From Spirosoma rhododendri (GTDB lineage: Bacteria; Bacteroidota; Bacteroidia; Cytophagales; Spirosomataceae): a stretch of DNA of 64,000 nucleotides. Under the pieces are notes generated by a model. The model made no database searches and had not been told where the DNA came from. It saw only the letters and a list, made by a program, of their open reading frames with translations. Shown piece after piece: positions 33,401 through 50,190 of this stretch; position 1 is the first letter of the stretch; each line of letters opens with the position of its first letter. Both the position numbers and the translations under genes were made by a program. The stretch covers positions 5,533,001 to 5,597,000 of the forward strand of contig NZ_CP051677.1 in the NCBI RefSeq assembly GCF_012849055.1, read 5' to 3'.

Positions 33401-33802
33401 TCAGCCGGCTAACGCCAGCGTTTCCTGCGTCCGTACATTACGCACGACCTCGTCGCAGCTGGCGCAGGCGCGGGCACCTTCCTGATGGTACCACCGGCAG
33501 TTGGTGCGGATCGCGCAGGCGACCAGCGTATCGTCGGCCTTACGATTCATAGCGTCGACAATCTTACCGACAAGGCTGCACCCCGCCTGCCCCGAATCCC
33601 AGTGCCCGCAGCCCGATTTGGCGCAGTTGCTGGCAAAGCGAAACCGCTCTTCCGGCGCACGGCCCTGGCGGGCTTTGTCGACGAACGTCTGATCGATGAT
33701 GACTGGCTCGTCGAGGTATTCGATCTGACCGGTGGCGGTCTGAACGCCGAACAAAGCCGCGCCGGGCCTGGCGGTTGAACTGGGGCAGAGGAGAGAGGCC
33801 AT
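33401..33802 (-). CDS. Cys-rich protein of unknown function, downstream of a Gly-Gly leader peptide gene
   Basis: From ATG 33802 the protein has 133 residues and eight Cys. The pattern is CAKSGCGHW, a further Cys ten residues on, then CAIRTNCRWYHQEG and CASC. This suggests a metal or iron-sulfur site. Similar small Cys-rich proteins in cyanobacteria and Bacteroidota are sometimes labelled 'nitrogen fixation protein', which I do not trust. It follows the Gly-Gly-leader gene at 33834-34040 by 31 nt on the same strand, so the pair is probably one transcript and the protein may help modify or handle the peptide. An upstream extension to 33952 has no domain support. Confidence 0.65.
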   Translation of the reverse strand: MASLLCPSSTARPGAALFGVQTATGQIEYLDEPVIIDQTFVDKARQGRAPEERFRFASNCAKSGCGHWDSGQAGCSLVGKIVDAMNRKADDTLVACAIRTNCRWYHQEGARACASCDEVVRNVRTQETLALAG

Positions 33803-33833
33803 GTGTGGGAAGGTTGGGCAATGATGACGCTTA

Positions 33834-34040
33834 CTAGAACTTAATCGTATCAGGATCGAGCCACAGACCCAGCACGGGGAAGGGCAGTTGATTCGCAGCG
33901 ATACCGCCGTTGACCTGATCCAGCAGTTCGGGATTGGCCTGCCCCTGTTCATCCAGCTGAGCCAGTTGATTCATAAACGCTTCCTGGCTGACAGCCTCGC
34001 TTTTCAGCGCGTCGATTTTGTCTGTAATCTGGTTCTTCAT
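33834..34040 (-). CDS. Gly-Gly leader peptide, candidate RiPP/bacteriocin precursor
   Basis: A 68-residue peptide. Residues 1-46 form an acidic, helical leader (KNQITDKIDALKSEAVSQEA ... ELLDQVNGG) ending in Asn-Gly-Gly, which fits cleavage by C39 peptidases like the one encoded at 46494. The predicted core, IAANQLPFPVLGLWLDPDTI plus KF, is hydrophobic, Pro/Leu/Trp-rich and has no Cys and only one Thr, so it is a poor lanthipeptide substrate. It stands directly before the Cys-rich gene. Could instead be a secreted signal peptide. Confidence 0.7.
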   Translation of the reverse strand: MKNQITDKIDALKSEAVSQEAFMNQLAQLDEQGQANPELLDQVNGGIAANQLPFPVLGLWLDPDTIKF

Positions 34041-34183: not shown

Positions 34184-34426
34184 TCAGGCGTGTTGCTGGC
34201 GCAGGGCCATCACGAGCAGGTCGGGCAGCGCCATGTCGAGCAGGTCGGCCAGGCTGATTTTGTAGAGTGCCGAAATCTGCTGCAATACCGTCAGCGAGAG
34301 TTCGGTCCGGCCGGTTTCTTTTTTACTGTAGGCCGCCTGACTGACGCCCAGGTGAAACGCGACGTATTCCTGCGGGTACCCGTAGATTTCGCGGAGTTTG
34401 CGAAGCTTTGTCGATATAGGGTGCAT
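34184..34426 (-). CDS. XRE-family helix-turn-helix regulator
   Basis: From ATG 34426, an 80-residue protein that is little more than a Cro/C1-type HTH domain: LRKLREIYGYPQEYVAFHLGVSQAAYSKKETGRTELSLTVLQQISALY, given here by its three parts around the recognition helix SQAAYSKKE. A short C-terminal helix follows (LADLLDMALPDLLVMAL). It is divergent from the LytTR response-regulator gene, with the ATTGGTCGAAA-type direct repeat between them. It may regulate the peptide locus; the palindromic TACAAC-N5-GTTRT sites would suit such a dimeric regulator, but this is not shown. Confidence 0.85.
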   Translation of the reverse strand: MHPISTKLRKLREIYGYPQEYVAFHLGVSQAAYSKKETGRTELSLTVLQQISALYKISLADLLDMALPDLLVMALRQQHA

Positions 34427-34503
34427 GGCTTTTGGTAGAAAAAGGTAACTGATCTGTTTTGGTTGATACAAATGAATACACCTACTGAGTCGATAGGAAT
34501 TTA

Positions 34504-34535
34504 TTTCGACCAATGAGTCGCTGTTTTCGACCAAT
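34504..34535 (-). promoter_or_regulatory. Direct repeat operator (two ATTGGTCGAAA), before the LytTR gene
   Basis: Two identical 11-bp units, TTTCGACCAAT on the plus strand (34504-34514 and 34525-34535), are exactly 21 bp apart, that is two helical turns. The 9-10 bp unit with 21-bp spacing is the layout known for LytTR-domain binding sites. It lies 17 bp before TATATTTA (34552-34559), a -7-like box of the response regulator, so autoregulation is likely. Related sites lie before 38084 and 38743. Confidence 0.7.
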
Positions 34536-34576: not shown

Positions 34577-35347
34577 ATGAACCGCACCCTATCCTGCTAT
34601 CTCCTCGACGACGAGTCACCGGCTCACGTTATTCTGTCGAAATACATCAGCCGCGTCCCATACCTGACCCTTGCGGGACAGAGCTACGATCCGTTCGAAG
34701 GGCTCGATCAGGTACAGGCGCTCAAACCCGATGTACTGTTTCTGGACGTCGAGATGCCGTTTATGACCGGCGTCGAATTTCTGAAATCCCTGCCCCTGCC
34801 CCATCCCGTCGTGGTCATGGTGACGGCATCGCCCCAGTTTGCCGCCGACACCTATAATTTCGATTCCGTCACGCACTACCTGCTCAAACCGGTTGGCTTC
34901 GACAAATTTTTGGAAGCCGTCAACCGCGTGACGAAGCGGCTTGGCTTTACGCCCGATCCTGATTCATCGGTCCTAACACCTCCCCCCATCCGCACACCGA
35001 CCCCGCCCGTCGACAGTCGCGAGACGGTGCCGTATTTTCTGATCAAGGAAGACAAGAAGCTGATTCGGGTAGCCCCGGAAGACATTGTGTTTGCGGAAGG
35101 AATGAAAGACTACATCAAGCTTCACCTGACAACCCGCGTGCTGATTACGCACATGACGATGAGTAAGCTGGTGGACATGCTGCCGCCTTCGCAGTTTTTG
35201 CGGATCAACCGGTCGTATCTGATTCGGCGGCAGGCCATCAAAGAGATTGACGGCAACACGATCACGACCCTCGATGGCAAACAGGTAACCATCGGTGTTA
35301 CCTACCGTGACCGGGTGATGGAAGAGTTGAAAAAGAACATGATGTAA
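34577..35347 (+). CDS. LytTR-family response regulator
   Basis: A 256-residue two-domain regulator. The receiver (1-125) has DDES, the phospho-acceptor in LFLDVEMPFMTG, a Thr switch in MVTASPQ and Lys in YLLKPVGFDKF. A Pro-rich linker follows, then a LytTR DNA-binding domain (150-256: FLIKEDKKLIRVAPEDIVFAEG, DYIKLHLTT, FLRINRSYLIRRQAI, TIGVTYRDRVMEEL). It is probably phosphorylated by one or both kinases encoded right after it and binds the ATTGGTCGAAA direct repeats in this locus. Confidence 0.92.
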   Translation: MNRTLSCYLLDDESPAHVILSKYISRVPYLTLAGQSYDPFEGLDQVQALKPDVLFLDVEMPFMTGVEFLKSLPLPHPVVVMVTASPQFAADTYNFDSVTHYLLKPVGFDKFLEAVNRVTKRLGFTPDPDSSVLTPPPIRTPTPPVDSRETVPYFLIKEDKKLIRVAPEDIVFAEGMKDYIKLHLTTRVLITHMTMSKLVDMLPPSQFLRINRSYLIRRQAIKEIDGNTITTLDGKQVTIGVTYRDRVMEELKKNMM

Positions 35348-35480: not shown

Positions 35481-35599
35481 TATGACCTACTCGCACCAGC
35501 AAACTGACTAACCCAATTGTAGAGATGAGGACAGTAAAATAACTGACTTCGGTAATTCTATTATGCGATTATCTTCGATACTACTTGGGTGATGCAACT

Positions 35600-36727
35600 A
35601 TGAACGTATATTATTTAATAAAAAGCTATAAAGCCCAGCAAGTCTTACTCTGGCTGCTGTTTTTGTTCTTCATAAGATATATTTATTTAGCCGATTTTAC
35701 TTATACGCCCTCAACGTTTTGGTGGAGATCTCTACAGTTTACTACCGACACTGCATTACTTTACTACCTGTTTAGTCTGTATATATTTCCTACGTTTCTA
35801 TATAAAAAGAAGCATGCACTCTTTCTAGTTTGGGTATTTTTGAGCCACGTCCTCACCTATCTAATAAATTACTTTTCTCTGTATGTCCTAAACATATTCT
35901 TCGCAAAGGGGCACGACCTTCCGGAGTGGACTGTTTACAGAAGGGGCGGCATTTTTGGCTTTATAATCGATGGTAATGCCGCAGTTACAAGTATACTATG
36001 GAGTTATCAGCTCGTCATTATTTTAATAGCAATCAGGGCCTTCCGGGATATTTTACAGCTACGAACCCAGTACTACCGCAGCGAGCAGGATCGCCTGCGA
36101 CTGGAGGTCGATTTTCTAAAAACGCAGGTTAACCCCCACTTCCTCTTCAACACCCTCAACAGCGTCTACGCCCGCATCTTCGAGGCCGATCAGCAGGCTG
36201 CCGACCTAGTGCTGCACCTTTCCGAGCTAATGCGCTACAACCTCTACGAGACCGACCAGCCCCGCATCGGCCTCGATAAAGAACTGGCTTACATTCAGAA
36301 CTACCTCGATCTGGAACGCAATCGGCTTAGCGGCCAGGACGTGCTGATCGACTACGAGCAGAGCGGAGAGCCAACCCATTATCAGATCGCCCCTCTGCTG
36401 CTGATCGCCTTCGTGGAGAACGCCTTCAAACACGGCGTCAAAGGGGCCACCCAGCCTGCTTATGTGCAGGTCAGGGCGGAGATAGACCCCGATGGACACT
36501 TGACTTTTATCGTCGAAAACAGCCTACCCGAGCGAAAGCAGGCTCCAACCACCACCGGGGTACGCTCCGGGGGCGTGGGGTTGGTCAATGTCCGACGTCG
36601 GCTCGAAGCCTTGTACAATGATCAATATGTACTCAATACTACTATCGGTCAACGAACTTACGCTGTTACTCTAACTGTGCAACTCGAATGGAGCAGCCAT
36701 CCAACACCGACCGCTGAGCTGGCTTAG
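35600..36727 (+). CDS. LytS-type sensor histidine kinase 1
   Basis: From ATG 35600, 375 residues. The first half has about four membrane helices (LLWLLFLFFIRYIYLADF, ALLYYLFSLYIFP, LVWVFLSHVLTYLINYFSLYV, a fourth near 140) and is AT-rich. The second half is His_kinase (PF06580): VNPHFLFNTLNS with the phospho-His, FVENAFKHGVKG as N box and SGGVGLVNVRRRLEALY as G box. From the H box through the N box it is nearly identical to kinase 2. The pair follows the LytTR regulator, so it likely senses a membrane-near signal, possibly one of the peptides, and phosphorylates that regulator. Confidence 0.9.
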   Translation: MNVYYLIKSYKAQQVLLWLLFLFFIRYIYLADFTYTPSTFWWRSLQFTTDTALLYYLFSLYIFPTFLYKKKHALFLVWVFLSHVLTYLINYFSLYVLNIFFAKGHDLPEWTVYRRGGIFGFIIDGNAAVTSILWSYQLVIILIAIRAFRDILQLRTQYYRSEQDRLRLEVDFLKTQVNPHFLFNTLNSVYARIFEADQQAADLVLHLSELMRYNLYETDQPRIGLDKELAYIQNYLDLERNRLSGQDVLIDYEQSGEPTHYQIAPLLLIAFVENAFKHGVKGATQPAYVQVRAEIDPDGHLTFIVENSLPERKQAPTTTGVRSGGVGLVNVRRRLEALYNDQYVLNTTIGQRTYAVTLTVQLEWSSHPTPTAELA

Positions 36728-36752: not shown

Positions 36753-37937
36753 ATGAACGACCTAACCATCGCTCCGCCCCGGCTAATTGCTTTCGTCCAA
36801 CACCATTGGTCTCGGATACGCACCACTGTGCATACATTATTATGGCTATTTACCTTCAGCTTGGCCAATTATTCATTGTCAATCCTAACTCCAGACGACA
36901 TTTTCGTTAGAAGCTGGCTCACACCCGGTATTTCTCTACTTACACTGACCTTCTTTTACGTATCAGGCTACATCATTTTCCCTCACTATCTGTATGTACT
37001 TCGACCTGTTAAGCTGCTTATCAGTCTAGCCCTGTTATTTCTCTTTGTTCACATTTGCACCTATGCTCTGTTATATTACTTGCATACCTATAATCCAGTC
37101 ACTAATAATTTTATCAACCGCTATTGGTTTCTTTTTAAGGCAGGTGGTCTATTTGGCTGTTTTACCAGCGTAAGAATAGCTATTCAAGACGTGATATTGA
37201 CTAGTAATGTATCATTCATATATCTAGTCCCCAAAGTAGCCAAAGACCTAGTTGTTATTCTCTCACGGTCGCTGCGGCTCAAAGGCGATAAATTCCGACT
37301 TGAAGGCGAAAAGCTTCGGCTCGAACGCGATAACCTAAATTTAGAATTGAGCTTTCTCAAAGCCCAGGTTAATCCCCACTTTCTGCTCAATACCCTTAAC
37401 AGCGTCTACGCCCGCATCTTCGAGGCCGATCAACAAGCTGCCGATTTGGTGCTGCACCTCTCCGAGTTAATGCGCTACAACCTCTACGAGACCGACCAGC
37501 CCCGCATCGGCCTCGACAAAGAACTGGCTTACATCCAGAACTATCTCGACCTAGAACGCAACCGACTCAGCGGCCAGGACGTGCTGATCGACTACGAGCA
37601 GAGTGGAGAGCCAGCTCACTACCAGATTGCCCCCCTGCTGCTGATTGCCTTCGTGGAGAACGCCTTCAAACATGGGGTCAAAGGGGCTACTCAGCCCGCT
37701 TATGTGCAGGTCAGAGCCGAGGTTGATACAGCGGGGCAGTTCATCTTTGCTGTTGAAAACAGCTTACCCAGCCGCCAGCCAGTAGCACTCGGAGCAGGCC
37801 GGTCAGGGGGCGTGGGACTTGCCAACGTCCGGCGTCGGCTTGAGGCCCTGTATGCGGGACACTACTCCTTAATTACACAGGCGGACGAAACAACGTATAC
37901 TGTTACGCTGACTATCAATTTGAACCAGTCACATTAG
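36753..37937 (+). CDS. LytS-type sensor histidine kinase 2, recent paralogue
   Basis: A 394-residue kinase with its own, quite different AT-rich sensor half (helices near 30-50, 60-85, 95-115; LLISLALLFLFVHICTYALL) and a charged coiled-coil linker (LRLKGDKFRLEGEKLRLERD). The catalytic half copies kinase 1: VNPHFLLNTLNS, then about 118 residues with very few changes, FVENAFKHG and SGGVGLANVRRRLEALY. DNA identity there is also high, which points to recent duplication or gene conversion limited to the kinase domain. Two sensors feeding one regulator is a reasonable reading. Confidence 0.9.
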   Translation: MNDLTIAPPRLIAFVQHHWSRIRTTVHTLLWLFTFSLANYSLSILTPDDIFVRSWLTPGISLLTLTFFYVSGYIIFPHYLYVLRPVKLLISLALLFLFVHICTYALLYYLHTYNPVTNNFINRYWFLFKAGGLFGCFTSVRIAIQDVILTSNVSFIYLVPKVAKDLVVILSRSLRLKGDKFRLEGEKLRLERDNLNLELSFLKAQVNPHFLLNTLNSVYARIFEADQQAADLVLHLSELMRYNLYETDQPRIGLDKELAYIQNYLDLERNRLSGQDVLIDYEQSGEPAHYQIAPLLLIAFVENAFKHGVKGATQPAYVQVRAEVDTAGQFIFAVENSLPSRQPVALGAGRSGGVGLANVRRRLEALYAGHYSLITQADETTYTVTLTINLNQSH

Positions 37938-37953: not shown

Positions 37954-37986
37954 ATTGGTCGAAAATTCTCCCGCGGTTGGTCTAAA
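37954..37986 (+). promoter_or_regulatory. Direct repeat operator (ATTGGTCGAAAA / GTTGGTCTAAA) before precursor 38084
   Basis: Units at 37954-37965 and 37976-37986 are 22 bp apart and match the repeats at 34504-34535. They lie just upstream of the promoter at 37991-38022, a usual place for an activator. A LytTR regulator site is the best guess. Confidence 0.65.
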
Positions 37987-37990
37987 GTAG

Positions 37991-38083: not shown

Positions 38084-38221
38084 ATGAAAAACACGACTGC
38101 TACCTCCACGCCCCGTCTGACGCTGAAGAAAGAGCGTATCATCAATCTCACAGCCACGAACTCTGTTCAGAACGGTGGGAAAGCATTCACGCTTACCACA
38201 ATTATTCCCCCAATTTTTTAA
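38084..38221 (+). CDS. LanB-associated precursor peptide with Cys-free core
   Basis: A 45-residue peptide. The leader holds LTLKKERIINL, which matches the L-x-L-K-K-x-x-I-x-x-L motif of class I lanthipeptide precursors in Bacteroidota, and ends in SVQNGG. The predicted core is KAFTLTTIIPPIF, with three Thr for dehydration and no Cys for thioether rings. It sits just before the receiver-like gene and lanB, under its own promoter and LytTR-type site. It should be exported and cleaved by the C39 transporter. The product may be a linear peptide with dehydrobutyrines; that is inference. A 76-codon frame over the same bases (38020-38250) is spurious. Confidence 0.75.
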   Translation: MKNTTATSTPRLTLKKERIINLTATNSVQNGGKAFTLTTIIPPIF

Positions 38222-38588
38222 TCTCCCTTTGCCTTCCTACTTCATCCTGAACTATTCAACGGCGAGTCGGCACCAACTCGCCCATTACCTCCAACGTTCC
38301 GGCTGGCTCACGCTGGGTCAGACCGGGGCGTTCTCGGAGGAAATGCTGGTCAGCTTACGATCGGCTGATGATGCGCCTGTCTTCCTCCGGCTGGTATCAC
38401 CCGATGCAACAATTCCGGCCCCTTTTCTGAACTACCTGCGCGATTATCCGGCCCTCATCATTACGTCGCCCTACCCGCAGCATCTGTTTGGTCATCTGCA
38501 CCTGCATCCGTTCGATTTCCTGACGGAACCCTATTCATTCGAGCGATTTGCCCAGTGTATAGCTCGTTACACCGCTATGTACGGGTAA
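38175..38588 (+). CDS. Orphan receiver-like protein without output domain
   Basis: About 137 residues from ATG 38175, or about 119 from TTG 38229. The body resembles a degenerate receiver of LytTR regulators: YFILNYSTASRHQLAHYL, PVFLRLVSPDATIP, ALIITSPYP and FDFLTEPYSFERFAQCI, the last echoing the usual FDYLLKPISFERF end. The acidic pocket and phospho-Asp are not conserved, and the KP Lys is replaced by Glu. It may be a pseudo-receiver that binds a kinase or regulator of this locus. If the ATG is used, its first codons overlap the end of the precursor gene. Confidence 0.55.
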   Translation: MGKHSRLPQLFPQFFNLPLPSYFILNYSTASRHQLAHYLQRSGWLTLGQTGAFSEEMLVSLRSADDAPVFLRLVSPDATIPAPFLNYLRDYPALIITSPYPQHLFGHLHLHPFDFLTEPYSFERFAQCIARYTAMYG

Positions 38589-38644: not shown

Positions 38645-38684
38645 ATTGGTGGCATTGGTCGAAAAAATGATCATTTCGTTGGTC
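38645..38684 (+). promoter_or_regulatory. Three ATTGGT-type repeats before lanB
   Basis: ATTGGTGGC (38645), ATTGGTCGAAAA (38654) and GTTGGTCAC (38678) repeat the operator unit seen at 34504 and 37954. Spacing is 9 and 24 bp, less regular than the others. They lie 60-100 nt before the lanB ATG, so the same regulator may act on lanB. Confidence 0.55.
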
Positions 38685-38742
38685 ACATGTTGAGTGGACG
38701 GTAAATTAGTAGTCTCCCTACTCTACTAGTCTACCATATTTC

Positions 38743-41700
38743 ATGATCCAACGCCATGACTTCTTTGTACTCCGGCAACCTGCTTTCCCGATCAGTACAT
38801 TAACCCGCTTTTACGACCAACTGGCTACGCATTCGTTTGATGATCTGCTCCGTCAGCACTACCAGAACCCGCTGGCGCAGGAAGCCATCTTTACCGCGTC
38901 GCCCACCCTGTACGAGCGATTTCAGCGATGGCTCGCCGGGGAGGTACTTCCCGAACAAACCAAACTGCTACTGACTCTGCACAAGTACCTGATTCGGATG
39001 TGCAGCCGGGCCACGCCTTACGGGCTTTTTGCCGGCTGTACGATGGGCCGATTCGGCGATCAGTCGGTTTATCGGGCGGGCACATCGGCTACGCTCCGTA
39101 CCCACAGCCGCATCGACATGGATTGTCTGCTGGCTATCGGGCGGTGGCTGACCAGCCTGCCCCACCTCCGGGCGCAGCTCAAGCTGTACCCCAACACATC
39201 GCTGTATTCGGCGGGGGCATCGCTGCGGTACGTCGAACAGCAATGGGAAACGGACCATCGCAATTATTTCATCAGTGCCGTCGAAGCCGATCAGTACCTG
39301 ACAACCGTTCTGACGGCAGCCCGGACGGGCTCCACCATTGGCGAACTCGCCACCCTGCTCACCGACCTGCAAACCGACGCCGACGAAGCCGCCGATTTTA
39401 TTGAACAACTAATCGACAGCCAACTGCTGGTGTTCGAGACAGAGCCAACTGTAACGGGTCGCCCCTACCTCGACTGGCTCACCGAACGCATCGCGTCGCT
39501 AGCCGATACCGGGCCGGAAGTTACGGCCCTACAGACGCTGATGAACGGCCTGCAACAAGGCGACCGGCGGCAGACGTATAGCCACATCCGACAGTGGCTG
39601 CTCGACCGGCAGATTAGCCCGCCCACTTCTGATCTGATGCAGGTCGATTCGTTTTTCGACAACCCGACGCTGCAACTCGGCGAACGGGCCATACAGCACC
39701 TTCAACGCGACCTCGAAAAGCTGCTGTTACTCAATCAACCCGCCGTTTGCCCCGATCTGGACGAGTTTAAACGACGATTCTATAATCGGTACGAAGACGA
39801 GGGAATTCCGCTGACACTGGCACTCGACCAAGAGTTTGGCATCGGCTACGGCTCCGGGTCGACCCTCGGCGTCGGCTATGCCCCCTGATCGATGACCTGT
39901 CGTTTACCAGTAACAACGCTCCGCAAACCACCAACTGGGACTGGTGGCAGACGTTCGTGATGGACAAATACGCGGCTGTGTTACGAAACCGACGCGCCAC
40001 CAGCGACATCGACGAAATTGCCCTGACCGACGATGATCTGGCGTATATCGCAACGCAACGCCCGCTGACGAGTGTCATGCCCGACACGCTGTACGCGTTT
40101 GGCTCGCTGCTGGCATCGTCGGCCAGAGCGCTGGATGAAGGGCATTTCCGCTTCAATCTGCTCGCTTATCGGGGGCCATCGGCCGTCAATCTGCTGAGCC
40201 GGTTCGGCGAGGGCGACCCGGTGCTGGCGCAACGAATTCGGGCCTGCGCAGCCGAAGAAGAAGCCCGACAAGCCAACGTCATCATTGCCGAAGTGGTCCA
40301 TCTGCCCGAAAACCGCGTCGGCAACATCCTGACCCGCCCCACGATTCACCCCTACGAAATTCCGTACATGGGTCACTCCTCCGCCGACGCCGACCATCAG
40401 ATTGCCCTGTCGGATCTGCTAGTGTCGGTGCGGAACGGGCAGGTCGTACTGCGGTCGAAGCGGCTTAATCAGCGGGTTATTCCCCGGCAGACAACCGCCC
40501 ATAATTTCGCCCACGGCCTGCCGATCTACCGCTTCCTGTGCGACCTTCAGGCGCAGGACGCTCACCTCAACGTGGTCTGGAACTGGGGCGTGTTGCGCAC
40601 ACAGGCGTACCTGCCCCGTGTGCGCTACCAGAGCGTGATTGTCAGCCGGGCGACGTGGCAGCTCCAGCCCCGGCAACTGACACCCGACAACCCGCTGCGG
40701 CTCGTGGCACAGCTGACAGCCGCTGGCCTGCCCGACCAGTTTATGCTGGCGCAGGGCGACAACGAACTTCTTATTCACCTGCACATCCCCGAATCACTGG
40801 CGTTACTCTCGGCCGAAATTCACCGGCTTAGGAGTCTGTCGACGCAGGGCAGCGAATCAGTCACCCTCCGGCTTGTTGAGTTTTTGCACCAGCCTGATCA
40901 GTGTCCGTTGGCTAACCGGCGGGACGTATACACGCACGAACTGATTCTACCATTCACCAGCAACCGTGCCCGACCGTTGCCGGGTTTGCAGCAGACAATC
41001 AACCAGTTGCCGCAGCGTAAATTTTCGGTGGGTAGCGAATGGTTCTACCTAAAAGTGTACACCGGCGAAAAAACGTCGGACGCGTTGTTGCTGCAAACCA
41101 TCTATCCGGTGGTGCAGCAGTTGCTGAAAACCCAGACCATTCAGGAGTTCTTCTTCGTCCGCTACAAAGACACCGACCCACACCTGCGGCTCCGGTTTCG
41201 CGGTAATCCGCACCTGGAATTTTACCACCATGTGGTGCGGGCGATGGAAAAAGCCCTGCACGAGTCAGTCGAGGCCGGGGTAGTGCACCGGGTACAGGTC
41301 GATACCTACCAGCGGGAGTTCGAGCGGTACGGTATGGAACATATCAGCCTGTGCGAGACGCTGTTTCACTGCGACAGCCTGTCGACGCTGGAATTTCTGG
41401 CGCGCACCGGCGACGAGTTCAACGAAAATCTGCGCTTCGCCTTCGCCATCCGCAAAATCGATCACCTGCTGACCGGCACAGGCTTGTCAGCCGCTCACTG
41501 CCGCACTATTCTCGACGCCATGAAAGAAAGTTTTTTTCAGGAGTTTGGTGGCAACTCGGCCCTGCGGCATCAGCTCAATGAGAAATTCCGCACGTATCGT
41601 CCATTAATGAACCAGGCGTTCAGCGCTGATTTTCCGGCGGCATCGAGCCTTGGCGACTGGAGCTGCATGCAGACCAGTCTACTGCGTCAGCTTGCCGATA

Positions 41701-42502: not shown

Positions 42503-42673
42503 ATGCACGAAACGACAACTGAGCTGGCTACGAGCCAAATGCTGAGCCAGGACGAGCTTGCGCAAATCAATGGCGGCCGGCCGGGAGGACAACCTGTAAT
42601 TGACATGCCTGTACATAAGATACCCATTTGGTATGTTGACCCGGAGACGGGCGATGGCTTCTGGCTCTGCTAA
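42503..42673 (+). CDS. Gly-Gly leader peptide, candidate precursor with C-terminal Cys
   Basis: A 56-residue peptide. The leader (TSQMLSQDELAQINGG) is a clear double-glycine leader of the Bacteroidota type. The core begins RPGGQPVIDMPVHKIPIWYV and ends DPETGDGFWLC: Pro- and Trp-containing, one Thr, and a single Cys as last residue. A Thr-to-Cys thioether ring is possible but a cyclase is not seen; a disulfide dimer or a free C-terminal Cys is another option. The gene is too short for common ORF cut-offs. Confidence 0.7.
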   Translation: MHETTTELATSQMLSQDELAQINGGRPGGQPVIDMPVHKIPIWYVDPETGDGFWLC

Positions 42674-43132: not shown

Positions 43133-43178
43133 TACAACGGCAGGTTGTTGAAAATCGAGATAGGCAAACAGACTTTTG
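43133..43178 (+). promoter_or_regulatory. Locus promoter P3: TACAAC-N5-GTTGTTGA with -7 GACTTTTG
   Basis: TACAAC (43133-43138), five bases, GTTGTTGA (43144-43151), and GACTTTTG (43171-43178), at the same 38-bp distance as the other copies. Here ACAAC-N5-GTTGT is a perfect 5-bp inverted repeat. The lipoprotein gene starts 32 nt after the -7 box. Confidence 0.7.
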
Positions 43179-43209: not shown

Positions 43210-43443
43210 ATGAATAAGAAAAATATTTTGGTTGCCGCTGGACTGTTGTTCCTGGCCACCGCCTGCAAAGAAAATAAGGTGATCGTCCCGACGTCGCCAA
43301 CTGTTCAAAAAGAAACACCCGCCCCAAAACTGCAAGGCGATGTTCTTGACGACGACGTGGTTGACACGCCAAAAGGCAAACCGGCTAAAGTGAAAGACCT
43401 TACACCGGAGAAGCCTTACGAAGCTTACCCAGCGCTTAATTAA
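43210..43443 (+). CDS. Small lipoprotein of the peptide locus
   Basis: A 77-residue protein with an SPII signal (KNILVAAGLLFLATAC, Cys 19). The mature part is short, charged and Pro-rich (VIVPTSPTVQKETPAPKLQG, then KPAKVKDLTPEKPYEAYPAL) and likely unstructured. It is under locus promoter P3 and heads the group of small Gly-Gly peptides. Small lipoproteins in bacteriocin loci often give immunity, so that is a fair but unproven guess. Confidence 0.65.
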   Translation: MNKKNILVAAGLLFLATACKENKVIVPTSPTVQKETPAPKLQGDVLDDDVVDTPKGKPAKVKDLTPEKPYEAYPALN

Positions 43444-43473: not shown

Positions 43474-43635
43474 ATGCAACTATACTATCAGGAGATCACG
43501 AAAGAGGAAGCGGTAGAAATTACGGGAGGAAACTGGCTCGTCCAATTTGTAGCCCGTGTCGTTGATACGCTTTGTGACCTGAGTGACGACCTCCAGACAA
43601 ACGGATCTAATAGACCCTATCAGCAATACGAATAG
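43474..43635 (+). CDS. Gly-Gly leader peptide, candidate bacteriocin
   Basis: A 53-residue peptide 30 nt after the lipoprotein gene. Leader QLYYQEITKEEAVEITGG has the spaced acidic/hydrophobic residues and Gly-Gly end of C39-processed peptides. The core starts NWLVQFVARVVDTLCDLSDD, an amphipathic helix with one Cys, and ends in a polar tail. Its leader is close to that of the next gene (QVDYQEITAVEAKEIAGG), so the two are paralogues with different cores. Confidence 0.72.
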   Translation: MQLYYQEITKEEAVEITGGNWLVQFVARVVDTLCDLSDDLQTNGSNRPYQQYE

Positions 43636-43669: not shown

Positions 43670-43807
43670 ATGCAAGTAGACTATCAGGAAATCACGGCCG
43701 TAGAAGCAAAAGAAATTGCAGGCGGATCTCTATTAGGTGAACTAGTTGACGCAGCCATCGCAGCAGCAGCTGAAGCGCTTCACCGACTCGCAGGGCCGAA
43801 CGTGTAA
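43670..43807 (+). CDS. Gly-Gly leader peptide, candidate bacteriocin
   Basis: A 45-residue peptide. Leader QVDYQEITAVEAKEIAGG resembles the previous gene. The core starts SLLGELVDAAIAAAAEALHR and ends LAGPNV: an Ala-rich amphipathic helix that should insert in membranes. No Cys, one Ser. Probably exported by the C39 transporter of the locus. The next 267 nt hold no gene. Confidence 0.72.
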   Translation: MQVDYQEITAVEAKEIAGGSLLGELVDAAIAAAAEALHRLAGPNV

Positions 43808-44074: not shown

Positions 44075-44218
44075 ATGTCTAATTTTAATCTCGATCAAGC
44101 CGAAGTAGTAGAACTGAACGCAGTAGATATGCACGAAGTAGAAGGCGGCAGTTTCTGGCAAGACGTAAAAGATTTCTTTAGTGGTATTGGGGATGGTTTT
44201 AGCCACCCCAGCAAATAA
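44075..44218 (+). CDS. Gly-Gly leader peptide, candidate bacteriocin
   Basis: A 47-residue peptide. The leader (VVELNAVDMHEVEGG) has the E-L-x-x-V-x-x-x-E-V-x-G-G pattern of class II bacteriocin leaders. The core, starting SFWQDVKDFFSGIGDGFSHP, is aromatic and amphipathic with a Gly-rich turn. No Cys. It starts an uninterrupted run of three such genes with 45 and 41 nt between them. Confidence 0.72.
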   Translation: MSNFNLDQAEVVELNAVDMHEVEGGSFWQDVKDFFSGIGDGFSHPSK

Positions 44219-44263: not shown

Positions 44264-44386
44264 ATGATTACGTTAAGCAACACAGAACTAGAAAATATCA
44301 ACGGCGGAAGCGAAGCCACGTATAGCGCAGGACGGGCAATCGGTGAATTTTTCCGCGGATTCATGGATGCATTTGGTTATTCTTAA
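44264..44386 (+). CDS. Gly-Gly leader peptide with GxxxG core, class IIb-like
   Basis: A 40-residue peptide. A very short leader (MITLSNTELENINGG) is followed by a core beginning SEATYSAGRAIGEFFRGFMD. The segment YSAGRAIGEF contains GxxxG, the helix-helix packing motif of two-peptide (class IIb) bacteriocins. The next peptide has the matching YEAGRAVGAL, so the two could act as a pair. Confidence 0.72.
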   Translation: MITLSNTELENINGGSEATYSAGRAIGEFFRGFMDAFGYS

Positions 44387-44427: not shown

Positions 44428-44586
44428 ATGAATCAAACTCTTGCTTTTAACTATTCAGTAGTTGATCTCGACGAAATGACCTTCGATGAGATGACATTGA
44501 TTGAAGGTGGTATGACCCCCTACGAGGCAGGGCGCGCAGTAGGAGCCTTGGTACAAATAGCTGCTACTATCATAGCTTTCTTGTAA
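44428..44586 (+). CDS. Gly-Gly leader peptide with GxxxG core, class IIb-like
   Basis: A 52-residue peptide. The leader (VVDLDEMTFDEMTLIEGG) is acidic and ends in Gly-Gly. The core, MTPYEAGRAVGALVQIAATI ending in IAFL, is strongly hydrophobic with a GxxxG motif like its neighbour. A hairpin follows, then the putative immunity protein. Confidence 0.74.
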   Translation: MNQTLAFNYSVVDLDEMTFDEMTLIEGGMTPYEAGRAVGALVQIAATIIAFL

Positions 44587-44653: not shown

Positions 44654-44932
44654 ATGAAATTAACAACTGTCTTAGCCTACAATCGCTTTGCTAGCCTAAT
44701 AGCTGTCATTTTGCTATTTGTCACCTTTCAGATTAATGAGAAGGGTATCTTGAAAGATATATTGTCGATAGTAGTACCTACACTGTTATACGCAAATTTC
44801 TTCTTGAAAAAGAGGATTGTCGAAAATGAAACGAATTCTGCTGTTAAATTCAATTTAGGGCGGACAATACTTGAAATTGCCTTCTTGACAGCCGCAATAG
44901 TTAACATTTTGAGACTGTTGACTATTTTGTAG
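44654..44932 (+). CDS. Small integral membrane protein, putative bacteriocin immunity protein
   Basis: A 92-residue protein with three hydrophobic stretches (SLIAVILLFVTFQI, ILSIVVPTLLYANFF, ILEIAFLTAAIVNILRLL) and short charged loops. No family recognised. Its place directly after the two GxxxG peptides, its size and topology fit immunity proteins of two-peptide bacteriocins. The gene is AT-rich compared with the chromosome core, as are its peptide neighbours. Confidence 0.6.
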   Translation: MKLTTVLAYNRFASLIAVILLFVTFQINEKGILKDILSIVVPTLLYANFFLKKRIVENETNSAVKFNLGRTILEIAFLTAAIVNILRLLTIL

Positions 44933-45135: not shown

Positions 45136-45181
45136 TACAACACACTGTTATTGAGCCCCGTATAGCCTCTACTGACCTTTG
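45136..45181 (+). promoter_or_regulatory. Locus promoter P4: TACAAC-N5-GTTATTGA with -7 GACCTTTG
   Basis: TACAAC (45136-45141), five bases, GTTATTGA (45147-45154), GACCTTTG (45174-45181); 38 bp from the first T to the -7 box, as in P1-P3. It serves the export genes starting at 45231, so precursors and exporter share one control. Confidence 0.7.
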
Positions 45182-45230: not shown

Positions 45231-46397
45231 ATGCAAAAACAACTTCACCCGCCTGCCGTCATCGAGCACACGACGGAGGCTTACCTGCCCCAGGTAACGG
45301 TCCGGGGGCAGCTCATCTACTGCTCCGTCGCGCTCGCCATTGTCGCGGCTCTCGTCGCCCTCCCCTTTATCCGTACCGAAGTGTCAGTACAGAGCGCGGG
45401 GATCATCCGTCCAGTCGCTGAGCGCAATGACCTCCGCCCACTGGTAGCTGGTACGGTCGCGCAGGTGCTCGTTCACGATAACCAGCCGGTGCGCCGGGGG
45501 CAGCCCATGATCCGGCTGCAAACCGAGGTGCTCGACACCAAACTCCGGCTCAATCACTCGCAGCAGGCCGAGAAACTGCTCAACATCCACGACCTCGACC
45601 GGCTCGTGCGGGCCACGCGCCACGACCTGCTCAGCGTGTCGGGTTTGCAATCGCCCCTGATCCGGCAGCAGTATGAGCAATTCCGGTTTCTGCTAACCGA
45701 GAACGTACAAACCCAAGAAAAGCGTAAGCACGAACTCGACGTTACGCAGCAGCTTTACCAGGACAAAGTGTTGGCAAAGCAGGAGTTTGAAGACAAGGAA
45801 TTTGCCCACAAAACGGCCGTGGCGCAGTATGCCGCGCAGGTCGAGCGGCAGGTGAGCGAATGGCAGGCCAGCCTGACGCAGCATCAACTCGCCCTTGATG
45901 AACTACGGGCGCAGGAACGCCAACTCCTGAACGAACGCGACCTGCACACGATCAAAGCCCCCGTCGACGGAACGGTGAGTCAACTGGCGGGGCGGTATCC
46001 AGGCAGCTACGTACAGCCGGGCGAAGTACTAGGCGTGATCTCGCCCGACTCTAATCTGCTAGTCGAATGCTACGTGTCGCCCAAAGATATCGGTCTGCTG
46101 CGCCCCGGCATGGTGGCCCGGATGCAGGTCGACGCCTTCGATTATAACCAATGGGGGTTGGTGCAGGCCAAAGTCGCCGAAGTCTCCAACGACGTCGTGG
46201 TGATGAACGAGCAGCCCGTTTTCAAAGTCCGCTGCCAGCTGTCGCAGAACTACCTGACGCTGAAAGAAGGCTACAAAGGCTACCTCAAAAAGGGCATGAC
46301 GTTGCGGGCGCGGTTCGTCGTCACCGAGCGCAGCCTGTTCGACCTCCTCTACGACAACGCCGACGACTGGCTGAATCCAAAGACGTCTAAGGTTTAA
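45231..46397 (+). CDS. HlyD-family periplasmic adaptor of the peptide exporter
   Basis: A 388-residue membrane-fusion protein. One N-terminal helix (LIYCSVALAIVAALVALPF) is followed by a lipoyl-like half-motif (AGIIRPVAERNDLRPLVAG), a long coiled coil (about 110-240, rich in Gln, Glu, Leu), the second half (LHTIKAPVDGTVSQLAGRYPG) and beta-barrel domain (VLGVISPDSNLLVECYV). It links the inner-membrane C39 ABC transporter to TolC. This is the first gene of the export operon under P4. Confidence 0.92.
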   Translation: MQKQLHPPAVIEHTTEAYLPQVTVRGQLIYCSVALAIVAALVALPFIRTEVSVQSAGIIRPVAERNDLRPLVAGTVAQVLVHDNQPVRRGQPMIRLQTEVLDTKLRLNHSQQAEKLLNIHDLDRLVRATRHDLLSVSGLQSPLIRQQYEQFRFLLTENVQTQEKRKHELDVTQQLYQDKVLAKQEFEDKEFAHKTAVAQYAAQVERQVSEWQASLTQHQLALDELRAQERQLLNERDLHTIKAPVDGTVSQLAGRYPGSYVQPGEVLGVISPDSNLLVECYVSPKDIGLLRPGMVARMQVDAFDYNQWGLVQAKVAEVSNDVVVMNEQPVFKVRCQLSQNYLTLKEGYKGYLKKGMTLRARFVVTERSLFDLLYDNADDWLNPKTSKV

Positions 46398-46485: not shown

Positions 46486-46493
46486 CACTTACC

Positions 46494-48745
46494 ATGGCTA
46501 AACAGACAATCATCAAACAGCACGATATTACCGACTGCGGGGCGGCCTGCCTGGCGTCGATAGCGGCTCACTATAACCTGATGATGCCCATTGCCCGCAT
46601 CCGGCAGATGGCATCGACCGATCAGAAAGGCACCAACGTACTCGGTATGATCGAAGCAGCTACCCGGCTGGGTTTTCAGGCGAAGGGCGTCCGCGGCACG
46701 TTCGAAAGCCTGAGTAAAATTCCTAAACCGGCTATCGCCCACGTTGTCGTCAAGGAAGTACTGCACCATTTCGTGGTCATTTACGAGGTCACCGACAAGC
46801 ACGTCGTCGTAATGGACCCCGGCCCGGGCAAGTTCATCAAACACACGCACGAGGAGTTCAAAGAACTCTGGACGGGCGTACTGATCCTGCTTCTGCCCGA
46901 CGAGCAGTTCGAAACCGGCAACGAAAAAGTATCGGCCATGCAGCGGTTCTGGCAACTGGTCCGGCCGCACCGCAGTGTGATGGTGCAGGCCCTGTTCGGC
47001 GCGCTGATCTACACCGTACTTGGGCTGTCGACGTCGATTTACGTGCAGAAAATTGTCGACAACGTCATCGTGGCAGGCAACCGGAATCTGCTCAACCTGC
47101 TCAGCGTCGTCATGATTCTGATTCTGGCGCTGCAACTGTTCATCGGTACGCTCAAGAGTATGTTCGCCCTGAAAACCGGTCAGCAAATCGACGCGCGGCT
47201 GATTTTGGGGTACTACAAGCACCTAATGAAACTGCCGCAGCAGTTCTTCGACACCATGCGCGTCGGCGAAATCATCTCGCGCATCAACGACGCAGTGAAG
47301 ATCCGGGCGTTCATCAACGATGCCGCTACGAGTCTGGTTGTCAATGTCTTTATCGTGCTGTTTTCGTTCGGTATGATGTTTACCTACGACTGGAAACTGG
47401 CCCTGATTATGCTGGCCGTCATCCCGTTTTACGCGGGTATCTATGTCGTCGTCAACCGGCTGAACAAGAAGTACCAGCGAACGCTGATGGAAGACGCAGC
47501 CGAACTGGAATCGCAACTGGTGGAGTCGCTGAACGCGATGGGCACGATCAAGCGGTTTGGGCTGGAATCGTTCGCCAACATCAAAACCGAAACGCGCTTC
47601 GTCAAGCTGTTGAAAACCATTTTCACCTCGGCCCGTAACTCGGTATGGTCGGGCAACGCGACGGAAATCGTATCGCGGCTGTTCACGATCATCCTGCTGT
47701 GGGTGGGCGCGGGTTTCGTCATCGACAATCAGATCACGCCCGGCGAACTATTGTCGTTCTACGCGCTCATCGGCTACTTCACCGGCCCGGCCAGTCAGTT
47801 GATCGGAGCTAACCGCACCGTGCAGGACGCGCTGATTGCTGCCGACCGCCTGTTCGAGATCATGGACTTGGAGCGCGAGGCCACCGAAAACAAAATCGAG
47901 CTGCAACCGGAGATGCTGGGCGACATTCGCTTCACGGAGGTGTCGTTCCGGTACGGCACCCGCACGCAGGTGTTCGACAAGCTGAGCCTGACCGTGCCGC
48001 AGGGCAAGATTACGGCGGTCGTGGGCGAAAGCGGATCGGGTAAATCGACCATGCTGTCGCTGCTGCAAAATATCTACCCCCTGCAAAGCGGCAGCATTCA
48101 CATCGGCGACTACGACATCAAACACATCAGCAACGACAGCATCCGTCGGCGGGTAAGCGTAGTGCCGCAGAAGATCGATCTATTCGCCGGCAACGTGATC
48201 GACAACGTCGCCGTGGGCGAATACCAGCCTGATATGCAGCGCATTGTCGCGATCTGCCAGCGGCTCGGCATCACCGATTTCATCGAGAAACTGCCCAACG
48301 GGTTCCATACTTACCTCGGCGAAAACGGGGCCAGCCTGTCGGGGGGCAAAAGCAGCGCATCGCCATCGCCCGCGCCCTCTACCAGAACCCCGACGTGCTG
48401 ATTCTGGACGAAGCCACGTCGTCGCTCGATTCGATTTCGGAGCAGTGCGTACAGGAAACCATCCGGCATCTGCGCGAACACAACAAGACCGTGATTCTGA
48501 TTGCGCACCGGCTCAGTACGGTCATGCACGCCGACAAAATCGTGGTGATCGAGCAGGGCAAACTCATCGAAGAAGGTACCCACACGGAACTACTACTGCG
48601 GGAAAATGCCTACTACAAACTCTGGGCGTCGCAGATGCCGCTGAGTTTTCCGTCGCTCCAACCGACCGCGCTCAACCTGATGCAAATCAGTGCCAACGGC
48701 GATCAACCTGAACCATCGATCACCCCAACCAGCCTAGTCGCATGA
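46494..48745 (+). pseudogene. C39 peptidase-containing ABC transporter (bacteriocin exporter), frameshifted
   Basis: Domain order is complete: C39 peptidase (IKQHDITDCGAACLASIAAH with the Cys, HHFVVIYEV His, MDPGPGK Asp), six-helix ABC exporter domain (about 150-430), then ATPase (VVGESGSGKSTMLSLL Walker A, LSGG signature, LILDEATSSLDS Walker B, AHRLSTV). In the G-run 48341-48346 one base is missing, so the frame breaks right after LSGG. With it the text reads LSGGQKQRIAIARALYQNP and the length is about 750, as usual. It cuts Gly-Gly leaders and exports the cores. Its last codons overlap the TolC gene by four bases. Confidence 0.92.
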
Positions 48746-50190
48746 AATTCGTCGTCTACTCCCTCCTCCTGACGGGCTGGCTCGGCGCAGCCTACGCCCA
48801 GGCACCGGCCGACGCCACGACGCCCGCAGCCGTTACCATGACGCTGGATCAATGCATTGCGCTGGCTATCGACAATCAGCCGTCGATCCGGCAGGCTCAG
48901 CTTCAGCAGCAAATCGCTGACAATACCGTTGAACAGACGCGGAAAAGCCAGTTGCCCGTCGTATCGTCGTTCACGAATCAGGGGCAAAATTTTGGGCGAA
49001 ACGTCGATCCATATACCAACTCGATTGTCAACTCGCAGATCGCCACCAACACAATGGGGCTGGGTGCCAACTGGACGGTATTCAACGGTTTTCAACTGAA
49101 AAACACGATTGTGCAGCAAAGCCTGACCGCGCAGGCCAGCCAATACGATCTGGCAGCCGCCAAAAACGCGGTGACGTTCAATGCGCTGCTGGCGTACCTA
49201 CAAGTGCTGACCGCGCAGGACCTCGACCGGGCCAGTGAGATGCAGGTAGCCGTGTCGCAGTCACTGGTCGAGCGGACGGAAAAGCTGGTGAAAGCGGGCA
49301 CGACAGCCCCGTACAACGGCTACGACGCCCGGAGCCAACTGGCAAGTGATCAGATTCAGCGCGTACAGACGCAGACCAACCTGAAAACGGCCGTGCTAAC
49401 GCTGCTTCAGGTGCTGAACCTACCCGCCACGACGCATCTATCTCTCGTCCGCGTCAGCGATACCGGCACCGTTGCCCCGGCATCGATAGCCAACGCCTAT
49501 CAGGTCTACACCCAGGCCCGAACGTTTATGCCCGACGTGCTAGCTGCCGACTTGCGTACCAAAGCAAGTCAGCTGGGCCTCAAACTGGCGAAGGGACTAG
49601 CGTACCCAACCGTTACGCTGAACGCCAACTGGGGAACGTCTTATTCCAGCGCGGCCCGGCGCAGTGTGATGACTGGCGACATGGTCGAGCAAACCACGAC
49701 TGGCTTTGTCGACGTATCGGGGCAATCGTATCCGGTGCGTGTGCTGACGCCCGTAACCGGCACGGAAGGCATTACGTATTTTCAGCAACTGGGTAACAAC
49801 CAGTACAAAAGTCTGACGCTCAGCATCCGCGTTCCGATCCTGAACGGCTTTCAGGTTCGCTACCGCACAACCAACGCCCGGTTGCAACAGCAGTTGTCAG
49901 AATCGCAGGCTGAAAGCACACGGCGGAACTTGCGGCAAGCTATCGATCAGGCAGTCGCGCAGCAGCAGAACGCCTACGAACGCTACACAGCCCTATCGGA
50001 GCAGGTCGCCACGTTGACGCAGTCGTTTCACGCGGCAGAAGCTCGTTACAACGCTGGCTTACTCCCCGCCGTCGACTATAACCTGGCAAAGAGTAACCTC
50101 GACAAAGCCACGATCAACCTGATTCAAGTGCGCTACGAGACCATCCTCCGCGACAAAATCGTACACTTCTACCAGAGCGGTACGTTGTGA
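48742..50190 (+). CDS. TolC-family outer membrane efflux protein
   Basis: A 482-residue protein with signal peptide (VVYSLLLTGWLGAAYAQ) and two repeats of the outer-membrane-efflux fold: MTLDQCIALAIDNQPSIRQA opens the first, ATTHLSLVRV and FMPDVLAADLRTKASQ open the second, and YNAGLLPAVDYNLAKSNLDKA closes it. It forms the outer-membrane channel for the HlyD/ABC pump. Start overlaps the ABC stop (ATGA), so the three export genes form one operon. Confidence 0.93.
   Translation: MKFVVYSLLLTGWLGAAYAQAPADATTPAAVTMTLDQCIALAIDNQPSIRQAQLQQQIADNTVEQTRKSQLPVVSSFTNQGQNFGRNVDPYTNSIVNSQIATNTMGLGANWTVFNGFQLKNTIVQQSLTAQASQYDLAAAKNAVTFNALLAYLQVLTAQDLDRASEMQVAVSQSLVERTEKLVKAGTTAPYNGYDARSQLASDQIQRVQTQTNLKTAVLTLLQVLNLPATTHLSLVRVSDTGTVAPASIANAYQVYTQARTFMPDVLAADLRTKASQLGLKLAKGLAYPTVTLNANWGTSYSSAARRSVMTGDMVEQTTTGFVDVSGQSYPVRVLTPVTGTEGITYFQQLGNNQYKSLTLSIRVPILNGFQVRYRTTNARLQQQLSESQAESTRRNLRQAIDQAVAQQQNAYERYTALSEQVATLTQSFHAAEARYNAGLLPAVDYNLAKSNLDKATINLIQVRYETILRDKIVHFYQSGTL

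Follow-up and report, generated by a model that had tools for sequence, protein, structure and literature searches.

A predicted two-tier peptide-signalling locus with a LanB-modified pheromone candidate in Spirosoma rhododendri

In a 64,000-nucleotide stretch of the Spirosoma rhododendri genome (the window), genes for XRE and LytTR regulators, LytS-type kinases, a LanB, many small peptides and an HlyD/C39-ABC/TolC export line occur together. This raises a question: is it one peptide cluster in which a single exporter serves LanB-modified and unmodified products alike, as the initial annotation proposed, or do its parts belong to separate systems? The locus genes are real and conserved within Spirosoma, and the locus consists of two linked modules, A and B, rather than a single mixed RiPP cluster. 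We consider it likely that these form a two-tier peptide-signalling locus, comprising a LanA pheromone, a matched LytS sensor, the LytTR and XRE regulators and module B. Module A contains the LytTR regulator, the LytS kinase(s), lanA, a degenerate receiver and LanB:

34577..35347, + strand, LytTR response regulator (Pfam LytTR, Response_reg)
35585..36727, + strand, LytS-type kinase HK1 (Pfam; sensor no closer to relatives than background)
36753..37937, + strand, LytS-type kinase HK2 (Pfam; shares 83% of its kinase half and ~24% of its sensor with HK1)
38084..38221, + strand, lanA, 45 residues, LanB-substrate candidate (NF038158 and NF038153 below cut-off; relatives' lanA)
38229..38588, + strand, degenerate receiver protein, phospho-acceptor Asp and conserved Lys lost; start probably TTG 38229
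38743..39888, + strand, LanB, first part (Lant_dehydr_N 1-342)
39957..41861, + strand, LanB, second part, another frame (Lant_dehydr_N 367-649, Lant_dehydr_C)

Module B comprises the XRE regulator, an acidic peptide, the Gly-Gly peptide array and the HlyD/C39/TolC exporter:

33834..34040, - strand, Gly-Gly peptide, DQVNGG leader, putative XRE regulon member (relatives; inverted-repeat operator with 2 mismatches)
34184..34534, - strand, XRE-family regulator (Pfam HTH_3; ATG start likely further in)
42170..42379, + strand, acidic peptide, first gene of module B (conserved NWxxSAxDLF, C-terminal (D/E)AA)
42503..42673, + strand, Gly-Gly peptide (strict Gly-Gly pattern, pN/pS)
42704..42919, + strand, Pro-rich Gly-Gly peptide (relatives, pN/pS; fails strict Gly-Gly pattern)
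43210..43443, + strand, small lipoprotein (relatives, pN/pS)
43474..43635, + strand, Gly-Gly peptide (strict Gly-Gly pattern, pN/pS; first ATG within ORF 43456-43635)
43670..43807, + strand, Gly-Gly peptide (relatives, strict Gly-Gly pattern)
44075..44218, + strand, Gly-Gly peptide, shared NFNxDQAEVVEL leader (strict Gly-Gly pattern)
44264..44386, + strand, Gly-Gly peptide, class IIb-like (TIGR01847 16.6 bits, cut-off 15.7; strict Gly-Gly pattern)
44428..44586, + strand, Gly-Gly peptide, class IIb-like (TIGR03949, below cut-off; strict Gly-Gly pattern)
44654..44932, + strand, small membrane protein, immunity candidate (no Pfam match)
45231..46397, + strand, HlyD-type membrane-fusion protein (Pfam)
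46494..48401, + strand, C39-peptidase ABC exporter, first part (Pfam)
48395..48745, + strand, C39-peptidase ABC exporter, remainder, another frame (ORF list, relatives)
48742..50190, + strand, TolC-like outer-membrane efflux protein (Pfam)

Pfam bore out the XRE, LytTR, two LytS-type kinases, LanB, HlyD, C39-ABC and outer-membrane efflux protein of the initial annotation; the receiver-like protein is real and degenerate, and all short ORFs named there exist, although its nine peptides (eight Gly-Gly) were listed with ten coordinates and the Gly-Gly of 38084 is kept by few lanA relatives. Hypervariable kinase sensors, core-sensor covariation, two operators and frame breaks had no place in it. 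Among 36 genomes of the genus, 22 carry the module A LanB at a threshold of at least 50% identity, and all five module A components occur together in 19 of these. lanA was found in 21/22 (20/21 without the window's own genome), the degenerate receiver in 19/22 (not found, for example, in S. oryzae or the MAG G025) and the acidic peptide, adjoining LanB, in 18/22; in G016, LanB and the acidic peptide are present and no lanA was found. Module A is also present in five other genera, and the module B exporter in 10 of the 36 genomes. The sensor-controlled export locus with Gly-Gly peptides and a C39 line, as originally described, recurs in relatives with its peptides in place.

The short genes of module B behave as coding sequences. 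On the + strand of 42400-45230, six ORFs fit the strict Gly-Gly pattern, against a mean of 0.06 and a maximum of 2 in 500 dinucleotide shuffles. Coding conservation, whose absence was to have counted against the initial annotation, was found: pN lies well below pS in each of the six short genes set against their S. oryzae counterparts (pN/pS 0.19/0.54 for the acidic peptide, 0.21/0.86 for 42503, 0.24/0.89 for 42704, 0.15/0.70 for the lipoprotein, 0.17/0.83 for 43474 and 0.27/0.58 for lanA; 43670, 44075, 44264, 44428 and 33834 were left out). Relatives of the 33834 peptide lie beside XRE or downstream of TolC. A C39 ABC exporter, accessory proteins and several Gly-Gly leader peptides, features of a Gly-Gly class II bacteriocin export locus, are all present. 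Among the Gly-Gly peptides, 44264 alone passes a curated bacteriocin model (TIGR01847), the others falling below cut-offs; judged by sequence, the peptides of the array look like unmodified bacteriocins of class IIb and may act as such. The array is indeed AT-rich (GC 0.427 vs 0.552), but its GC is low in 9/9 relatives measured as well, so the composition is no evidence of recent transfer, as which the initial annotation had read it.

How might the two modules be controlled? A direct repeat, ATTRGTCGAAA with units 21-24 bp apart, has four exact copies in 6 Mb, at xre, lanA, lanB and a remote ABC-peptidase pair. An inverted repeat, TACAAC-N5-GTTRTTGA, which extends over the -33 region and keeps a constant distance of 23 bp to a -7 TTTG, also has four exact copies in 6 Mb, every one at a module B promoter:

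34504..34535, - strand, direct-repeat operator in the interval separating xre from the response regulator (proposed to bind LytTR)
37954..37990, + strand, direct-repeat operator upstream of lanA (repeat search)
38654..38690, + strand, direct-repeat operator upstream of LanB (units 24 bp apart, second unit weaker)
42051..42096, + strand, inverted-repeat operator and -7 element, acidic-peptide promoter (exact match)
42414..42459, + strand, inverted-repeat operator, 42503 promoter (exact match)
43133..43178, + strand, inverted-repeat operator, lipoprotein promoter (exact match)
45136..45181, + strand, inverted-repeat operator, exporter promoter (exact match)
34080-34125, inverted-repeat operator for the 33834 peptide (2 mismatches)

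The inverted repeat tracks with the xre gene across loci: at least two sites occur in 14/14 loci with this XRE (at least 72% identity) and in 0/24 loci without it. We infer that LytTR binds the direct repeat and XRE the inverted one, and the two operators suggest a predicted regulatory cascade.

The peptide gene lanA adjoins a polytopic kinase and a LytTR regulator, as polymorphic pheromone systems require. Identity between the kinase sensors has dropped almost to background, whereas the kinase halves remain similar. Against a background sensor identity of 21.7 +- 2.7 (maximum 28.4, 122 pairs), HK1 shares 22-37% of its sensor and 63-80% of its kinase half with 11 kinases from 10 close relatives, and the two S. 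oryzae kinases are 93% identical to one another in the kinase half and 30% in the sensor. Six other reciprocal LytS orthologue pairs from the window's own genome and that of S. oryzae show no such divergence (kinase 70-94%, sensor 60-96%). The HK2 sensor is all-helical in a structure model (pLDDT 79.7, pTM 0.46).

Variation in the LanA core follows that of the sensor. The partial correlation between them, controlling for the kinase half and LanB, is 0.60 over 12 loci (p 0.0002), and 0.34 (19 loci) and 0.50 (24 loci) in larger sets (p <= 0.0008), by Mantel-type tests whose significance can be overstated on related sequences; the set did not include the lanA-like peptides of Dyadobacter. The LanA leader does not covary with the sensor (r -0.07, 12 loci); the last 12 residues of LanA give r 0.67 (leave-one-out 0.61-0.72) and the first 24 give -0.15. 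In the 17 loci where the response regulator was found, its r was -0.06 and that of the core 0.34; in the six loci that yielded a degenerate receiver, values were 0.32 for the core (p 0.13), 0.31 for the receiver and 0.40 for the leader. The clearest case of matching involves three loci: L039 and L040 share 83% of LanB and 79% of the kinase half, but only 35% of the sensor and 10% of the core, and the L040 sensor is 57% identical to that of L034 (LanB 64%), which has the L040 core type. Together, sensor divergence, core-sensor covariation and the two operators suggest a predicted polymorphic pheromone system.

What, then, does LanB modify? The window's lanA has a PRLTLKKERI leader and the core KAFTLTTIIPPIF, with no Cys; in relatives, the core has one Cys or none. 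The leader scores 17.8 bits with NF038158 (cut-off 27) and 15.8 bits with NF038153 (cut-off 22), and curated leader models gave two weak matches and two non-matches on four lanA relatives. In style, the leader of this candidate LanB precursor appears class-I-lanthipeptide-like. Both the glutamylation and the elimination domain of LanB are present across its two ORFs (PF04738, PF14028), and positions aligned by hand to the NisB catalytic residues, under residue numbers that we assume for NisB, show little or no variation across 12 relatives. LanA could be mainly antimicrobial and induce its own synthesis like nisin, the kinase detecting the bacteriocin or its damage and the array being a further weapon controlled in the same way. 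Nisin-type autoinduction is established, LanB is complete in relatives with its catalytic positions kept, and the ABC/M1-peptidase pair with its direct-repeat operator could serve immunity. However, a PF05147 search found no LanC candidate in the window's own genome (LanC occurs in 17/36 genus genomes, within 10 kb of the module A LanB only in G010, where it adjoins another LanB), module A has no obvious LanFEG set, the core as delimited is just 9 to 18 residues, and covariation and sensor replacement suggest recognition specificity more than damage sensing. We regard this alternative as rather unlikely.

The single mixed system of the initial annotation, in which LanB modifies some of the Gly-Gly peptides and all products leave by one C39 exporter, gains from the fact that LanB and array are physically linked to the exporter in 9 of the 10 genomes that carry it, and from the NGG preceding the core of the window's lanA. 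LanB, however, has a precursor of its own in which Gly-Gly is not conserved, the clade-1 (module B) exporter is absent from 12/22 module A genomes of the genus, and in G018 the array, exporter and XRE are set apart from the LanB module in opposite orientation. This comparison gives no support to one mixed system with a shared exporter, which we think quite improbable.

It is doubtful, to a still greater degree, that the kinases sense one of the Gly-Gly peptides, with common descent or recombination having produced the LanA-sensor covariation as a by-product. Gly-Gly peptides are the usual ligands of the streptococcal Blp and Com kinases, the tests themselves can overstate significance, and the HK2 sensor is 64% identical in S. 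oryzae, yet paired with LanA cores only 23% identical. On the other hand, lanA adjoins the kinase even in loci without an array, and the leader and kinase half, which sit between sensor and core, do not follow, which argues against such a by-product.

LanB, at first taken as full-length, is split as read into two frames near a C run, and C39-ABC near a G run. In the 21 other genomes of the genus with LanB at 50% identity or more, the match falls within an uninterrupted frame (1023-1073 codons), and in the nine close relatives of C39 the open frames range from 754 to 847. A GH88 gene just outside the locus (30885-32017, - strand) is broken likewise near a homopolymer; since this third gene is unrelated, homopolymer assembly errors are likely, and both frame breaks are probably of this kind. 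A dead, decaying system in this strain, for which the two broken genes would speak, is very unlikely given what looks like a consensus error in the unrelated neighbour and the four exact operators kept.

Under the two-tier reading that we prefer, LanA would be dehydrated by LanB on Ser/Thr, then trimmed and exported, and the short mature peptide would bind the adjacent polytopic LytS kinase as its ligand. The kinase would act via LytTR on the direct repeats, raising lanA and lanB in positive feedback, as well as xre and the remote ABC/M1-peptidase pair. XRE would bind the inverted repeat and control the acidic peptide, the lipoprotein, the Gly-Gly array and the HlyD/C39/TolC exporter. This exporter would cut and secrete the class II-like peptides. 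LanA core and sensor would form matched strain-specific pairs (pherotypes). Against this reading speak the 64% HK2 sensor identity with S. oryzae despite dissimilar LanA cores, the weak core signal in the six-locus subset, the module A genomes that lack the clade-1 exporter as a way out for LanA, the genomes in which the degenerate receiver or lanA was not found, and the frame breaks of LanB and C39 in this assembly. Somewhat more tentatively, we favour the wider view that a LanB-dehydrated short peptide, with no adjacent LanC, is the pherotype signal of a Cytophagales family with matched LytS sensors; in many strains this peptide would have no Cys and therefore be a linear dehydroamino-acid pheromone, the degenerate receiver serving as an extra regulatory part and XRE as a second tier that switches exchangeable peptide payloads. 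An enzyme-modified short peptide, read by a matching sensor, probably switches on small secreted peptides in what looks like a strain-specific password system.

To our knowledge, it is mainly in Gram-positive bacteria that peptide pheromones paired with matching polymorphic sensors have been described, and our literature search found no matched-sensor pheromone system with a LanB-modified signal in Bacteroidota. If the reading is true, cell-cell signalling in a large environmental group becomes directly testable with short synthetic peptides, LanB gains a role in signalling with no cyclase next to it, and natural ligand-receptor pairs are on offer; the operators predict the regulon, including the remote ABC/M1-peptidase pair, a possible exporter or maturation system for the signal.

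Among known systems, the streptococcal pheromone-bacteriocin loci Blp/ComCDE, with which S. gallolyticus gallocin control is reportedly grouped, share a peptide gene beside a polytopic kinase and LytTR regulator, a C39 exporter, a regulator-controlled Gly-Gly class II array and polymorphic sensor and pheromone. In contrast, the present locus belongs to a Gram-negative Bacteroidota, with LytS (PF06580) kinases, an XRE second tier, HlyD/TolC envelope parts, a degenerate receiver and a candidate pheromone that is predicted to be LanB-modified and in most relatives is not a Gly-Gly peptide. In nisin-type class I lanthipeptide autoinduction (NisABTCIPRK), as proposed for the present locus, a LanB-modified peptide feeds back on its own promoter via a two-component system; here, however, LanC is absent from the genome, the short core often lacks Cys, LytS/LytTR replace NisK/NisR, and the cargo is a separate, predictedly unmodified array. 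The polymorphic quorum-sensing systems AgrC/AgrD and ComP/ComX have the same hypervariable sensor half, conserved kinase half and matched peptide variants, with another modification chemistry and in another phylum. Closer in phylogeny, a Bacteroidales survey found no LanB gene in its genomes and, in the passages concerned, describes no pheromone tier; its bacteroidetocins and PCAT-exported Gly-Gly RiPPs share Gly-Gly precursors and C39 exporters in Bacteroidota with our locus (PMC10352776). A study that mined Bacteroidota for class I lanthipeptides took LanC as its bait and would therefore miss LanC-free loci such as that of Spirosoma; its pinensins resemble the present system in having a LanB with a leader of the same style (PMC7268733).

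Between 33.4 and 50.2 kb of the window, the 6.05-Mb genome of S. rhododendri carries genes for an XRE and a LytTR regulator, two kinases of the LytS type (HK1 and HK2), a short peptide (lanA), a receiver-like protein and LanB. The same region encodes an HlyD/C39/TolC exporter, seven Gly-Gly peptides, one acidic peptide, a lipoprotein and a small membrane protein. Our best reading, by analogy, is that this may be a pheromone-controlled peptide locus in the manner of the streptococcal Blp/Com systems, in which a LanB-modified peptide would serve as the signal, with a LytS/LytTR tier followed by an XRE tier. The LanB and C39 genes are each split into two frames, with breaks near homopolymer runs. 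Since both genes have open frames in relatives and a nearby gene is broken likewise near a G run, assembly error is the likely cause, and the window assembly probably carries homopolymer errors. A tRNA search found no tRNA genes. The nearby broken gene and a further gene at the edge of the region are as follows:

30885-32017 (-), GH88 gene in two frames
33401-33952 (-), conserved Cys-containing protein with no Pfam match, which overlaps and follows the Gly-Gly peptide gene at 33834; the pair is seen again near the locus in relatives

The locus falls into two modules. LanB (at least 50% identity) was found in 22 of the 36 genus genomes, and in 19 of these 22 it is accompanied by all four of its partners, the regulator, the kinase, lanA and the degenerate receiver (module A). 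Spirosoma oryzae and S. panaciterrae are among the carriers of the module. The receiver is absent beside LanB in S. oryzae and in one metagenome-assembled genome (G025), and the search around the LanB of G016 yielded none of the other four genes. Outside the genus, lanA and the receiver also accompany LanB in Fibrella, Rudanella, Hymenobacter, Siphonobacter and Dyadobacter. In all 20 aligned receivers the phospho-acceptor Asp is gone and Glu replaces the conserved Lys; the structural model has receiver topology (pLDDT 89.2), with receivers as the best PDB matches. No Pfam domain was found in 54 of 55 database relatives, which are named hypothetical protein or response-regulator-like. Our guess is that the protein could be an antagonist or a partner of the LytTR regulator.

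Against 11 kinases from 10 close relatives, HK1 showed 63-80% identity in the kinase half and 22-37% in the sensor, close to the mean of 21.7% between unrelated sensors. The values for HK2 against the same relatives were 62-82% and 25-34%, with the exception of one S. oryzae kinase (84% and 63%). HK1 and HK2 themselves share 83% of the kinase half and about 24% of the sensor; the corresponding values for the two S. oryzae kinases are 93% and 30%. As a control, we used six further reciprocal LytS pairs from the same two genomes (a motif filter removed the L162 and L172 kinases, and L157, L161 and L163 of our genome had no reciprocal partner); their kinase halves are 70-94% and their sensors 60-96% identical. 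Thus, among those tested, sensor replacement sets the kinases of this locus apart. A fold search with the kinase model gave kinase-domain matches among the 50 matches listed and nothing on the sensor.

The sensor varies together with the LanA core. With the kinase half and LanB held constant, the correlation coefficient r between core similarity and sensor identity was 0.60 over 12 close loci, 0.34 over 19 and 0.50 over 24 (p at most 0.0008 in each set), and the leader was not correlated with the sensor (r -0.07). In the 17 of twenty loci for which a response regulator was picked up, the coefficient was -0.06 for response regulator and sensor and 0.34 for core and sensor. The first tests used hand-set core borders; a later one worked with fixed lengths instead, and in it the last 12 residues of LanA gave r 0.67 (0.61-0.72 when leaving out one locus at a time) and the first 24 gave -0.15. 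Near-duplicates (L032, L035, L045 and L037 in some sets) were omitted, as were loci without an assigned core or full kinase (L086-L089, L092 and L113). Sensor, kinase half, leader and core follow one another in this order along the locus, so simple linkage would carry the middle parts too. Against covariation, however, the HK2 sensor is 64% kept in S. oryzae although the LanA core differs, and in the six of twelve loci left by the receiver filter, which missed the others, the core (r 0.32, p 0.13) did not exceed the receiver (0.31) or the leader (0.40) in any clear way.

The lanA leader is of Bacteroidota class I lanthipeptide style, with scores under the curated cut-offs, and the core is short and Ser/Thr-rich (KAFTLTTIIPPIF in the window; for example, KSSRICDFLTI and RTTIFTLGNF in relatives). 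Positions aligned by hand with the catalytic residues of NisB are kept in relatives, which makes dehydration by LanB plausible. No LanC candidate was found in our genome, and there was no match in 11 of the 22 module-A genomes, some genomes being incomplete; several of these 11 have Cys-bearing cores. No export route for LanA was found.

Two proposed operators connect the genes of the locus. The inverted repeat TAMAAY-N5-GTTRTTGA-N23-TTTG, whose TTTG fits the Bacteroidota -7 element, has four exact matches genome-wide, all at this locus, upstream of the acidic peptide, the 42503 peptide, the lipoprotein and HlyD; a two-mismatch copy precedes the 33834 peptide. With three mismatches, the genome yielded 36 matches against 41 in the reversed control, so weight is placed only on these five sites. 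In 32 stretches (621,207 bases), the scan with up to three mismatches gave 56 matches against 7 in the reversed control. Two or more sites occur in 14/14 stretches with an XRE of at least 72% identity, one to three in 4/6 with an XRE of 52-61%, and any site at all in 0/24 without XRE; four partial stretches ending short of the XRE position hold sites. The direct repeat ATTGGTCGAAA-N9-15-TTGGTC, with a spacing that fits LytTR sites, matches the reversed control nowhere and the genome exactly at four places: xre/regulator, lanA, lanB and a remote position, upstream of the following pair:

G000:C1:766811-771440 (L195 2812-7440), (-), ABC ATPase and ABC-2 permease with an M1-peptidase domain, about 4.8 Mb from the locus

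Relatives of this pair lie inside the locus in two other genomes (G015 and G029) with the same direct-repeat operator. The pair is a candidate for export, for leader cleavage or for immunity. A stricter pattern had 7 matches in the 36 genomes (3 xre, 3 ABC/M1 pair, 1 lanA) and 0 in the control, and a degenerate one had 35 in the 32 stretches against 1. The assignment of the LytTR and XRE proteins to particular operators is our inference.

The exporter (at least 87% identity) is present in 10 of the 36 genomes, every one among the 22 with LanB. In these, the stretch from the acidic peptide to HlyD is a variable array of 2.5 to 10.4 kb (ten stretches measured), with common leader families and different cores. 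The initial annotation had suggested a horizontal origin from its low GC content, which we reject because the array is GC-poor in 9/9 relatives measured. Nor is modification of the Gly-Gly peptides by LanB supported, as XRE, acidic peptide, array and exporter are grouped in G018 separately from the LanB module. A PEARL-like role of the acidic peptide was also considered: its C-terminal AA is constant and its gene lies beside a LanB, but this LanB is of the full-length type, and the acidic peptide of G018 stays with the array, not with LanB. In one stretch, a different payload lies downstream of the same inverted-repeat operator and acidic peptide:

L034 10135-17494, Gly-Gly peptide, TPR/guanylate cyclase protein, DUF4135 (LanM-type dehydratase) protein and glycosyltransferase-like protein

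A second exporter clade (66-72% identity) goes with different Gly-Gly peptides and with XRE genes that are distantly related (32-46%), and the inverted-repeat operator was found in 0/10 of its stretches. L031 and L037 show signs of array growth by duplication, and L069 holds a tandem set of peptides:

L031 12425-15538 (S. oryzae), truncated HlyD copy with its own operator
L037 9781-12609 (G022), repeated unit of operator and lipoprotein
L069 11669-12538, three nearly identical Gly-Gly peptides of 80 residues in tandem, adjoining a second-clade C39 exporter

A literature search, with little subscription literature, returned nothing that we recognised as this system. In the literature, LanB is reported absent from Bacteroidales (PMC10352776), LanC served as mining bait (PMC7268733), and peptide signals are given as a Gram-positive trait (PMC8895600). 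The likeness of the proposed pheromone-controlled locus to the streptococcal Blp/Com systems would lie in the pheromone control of a peptide locus, while it would differ from them in a proposed LanB-modified signal, in its LytS/LytTR and XRE tiers and in its occurrence in a Gram-negative phylum.
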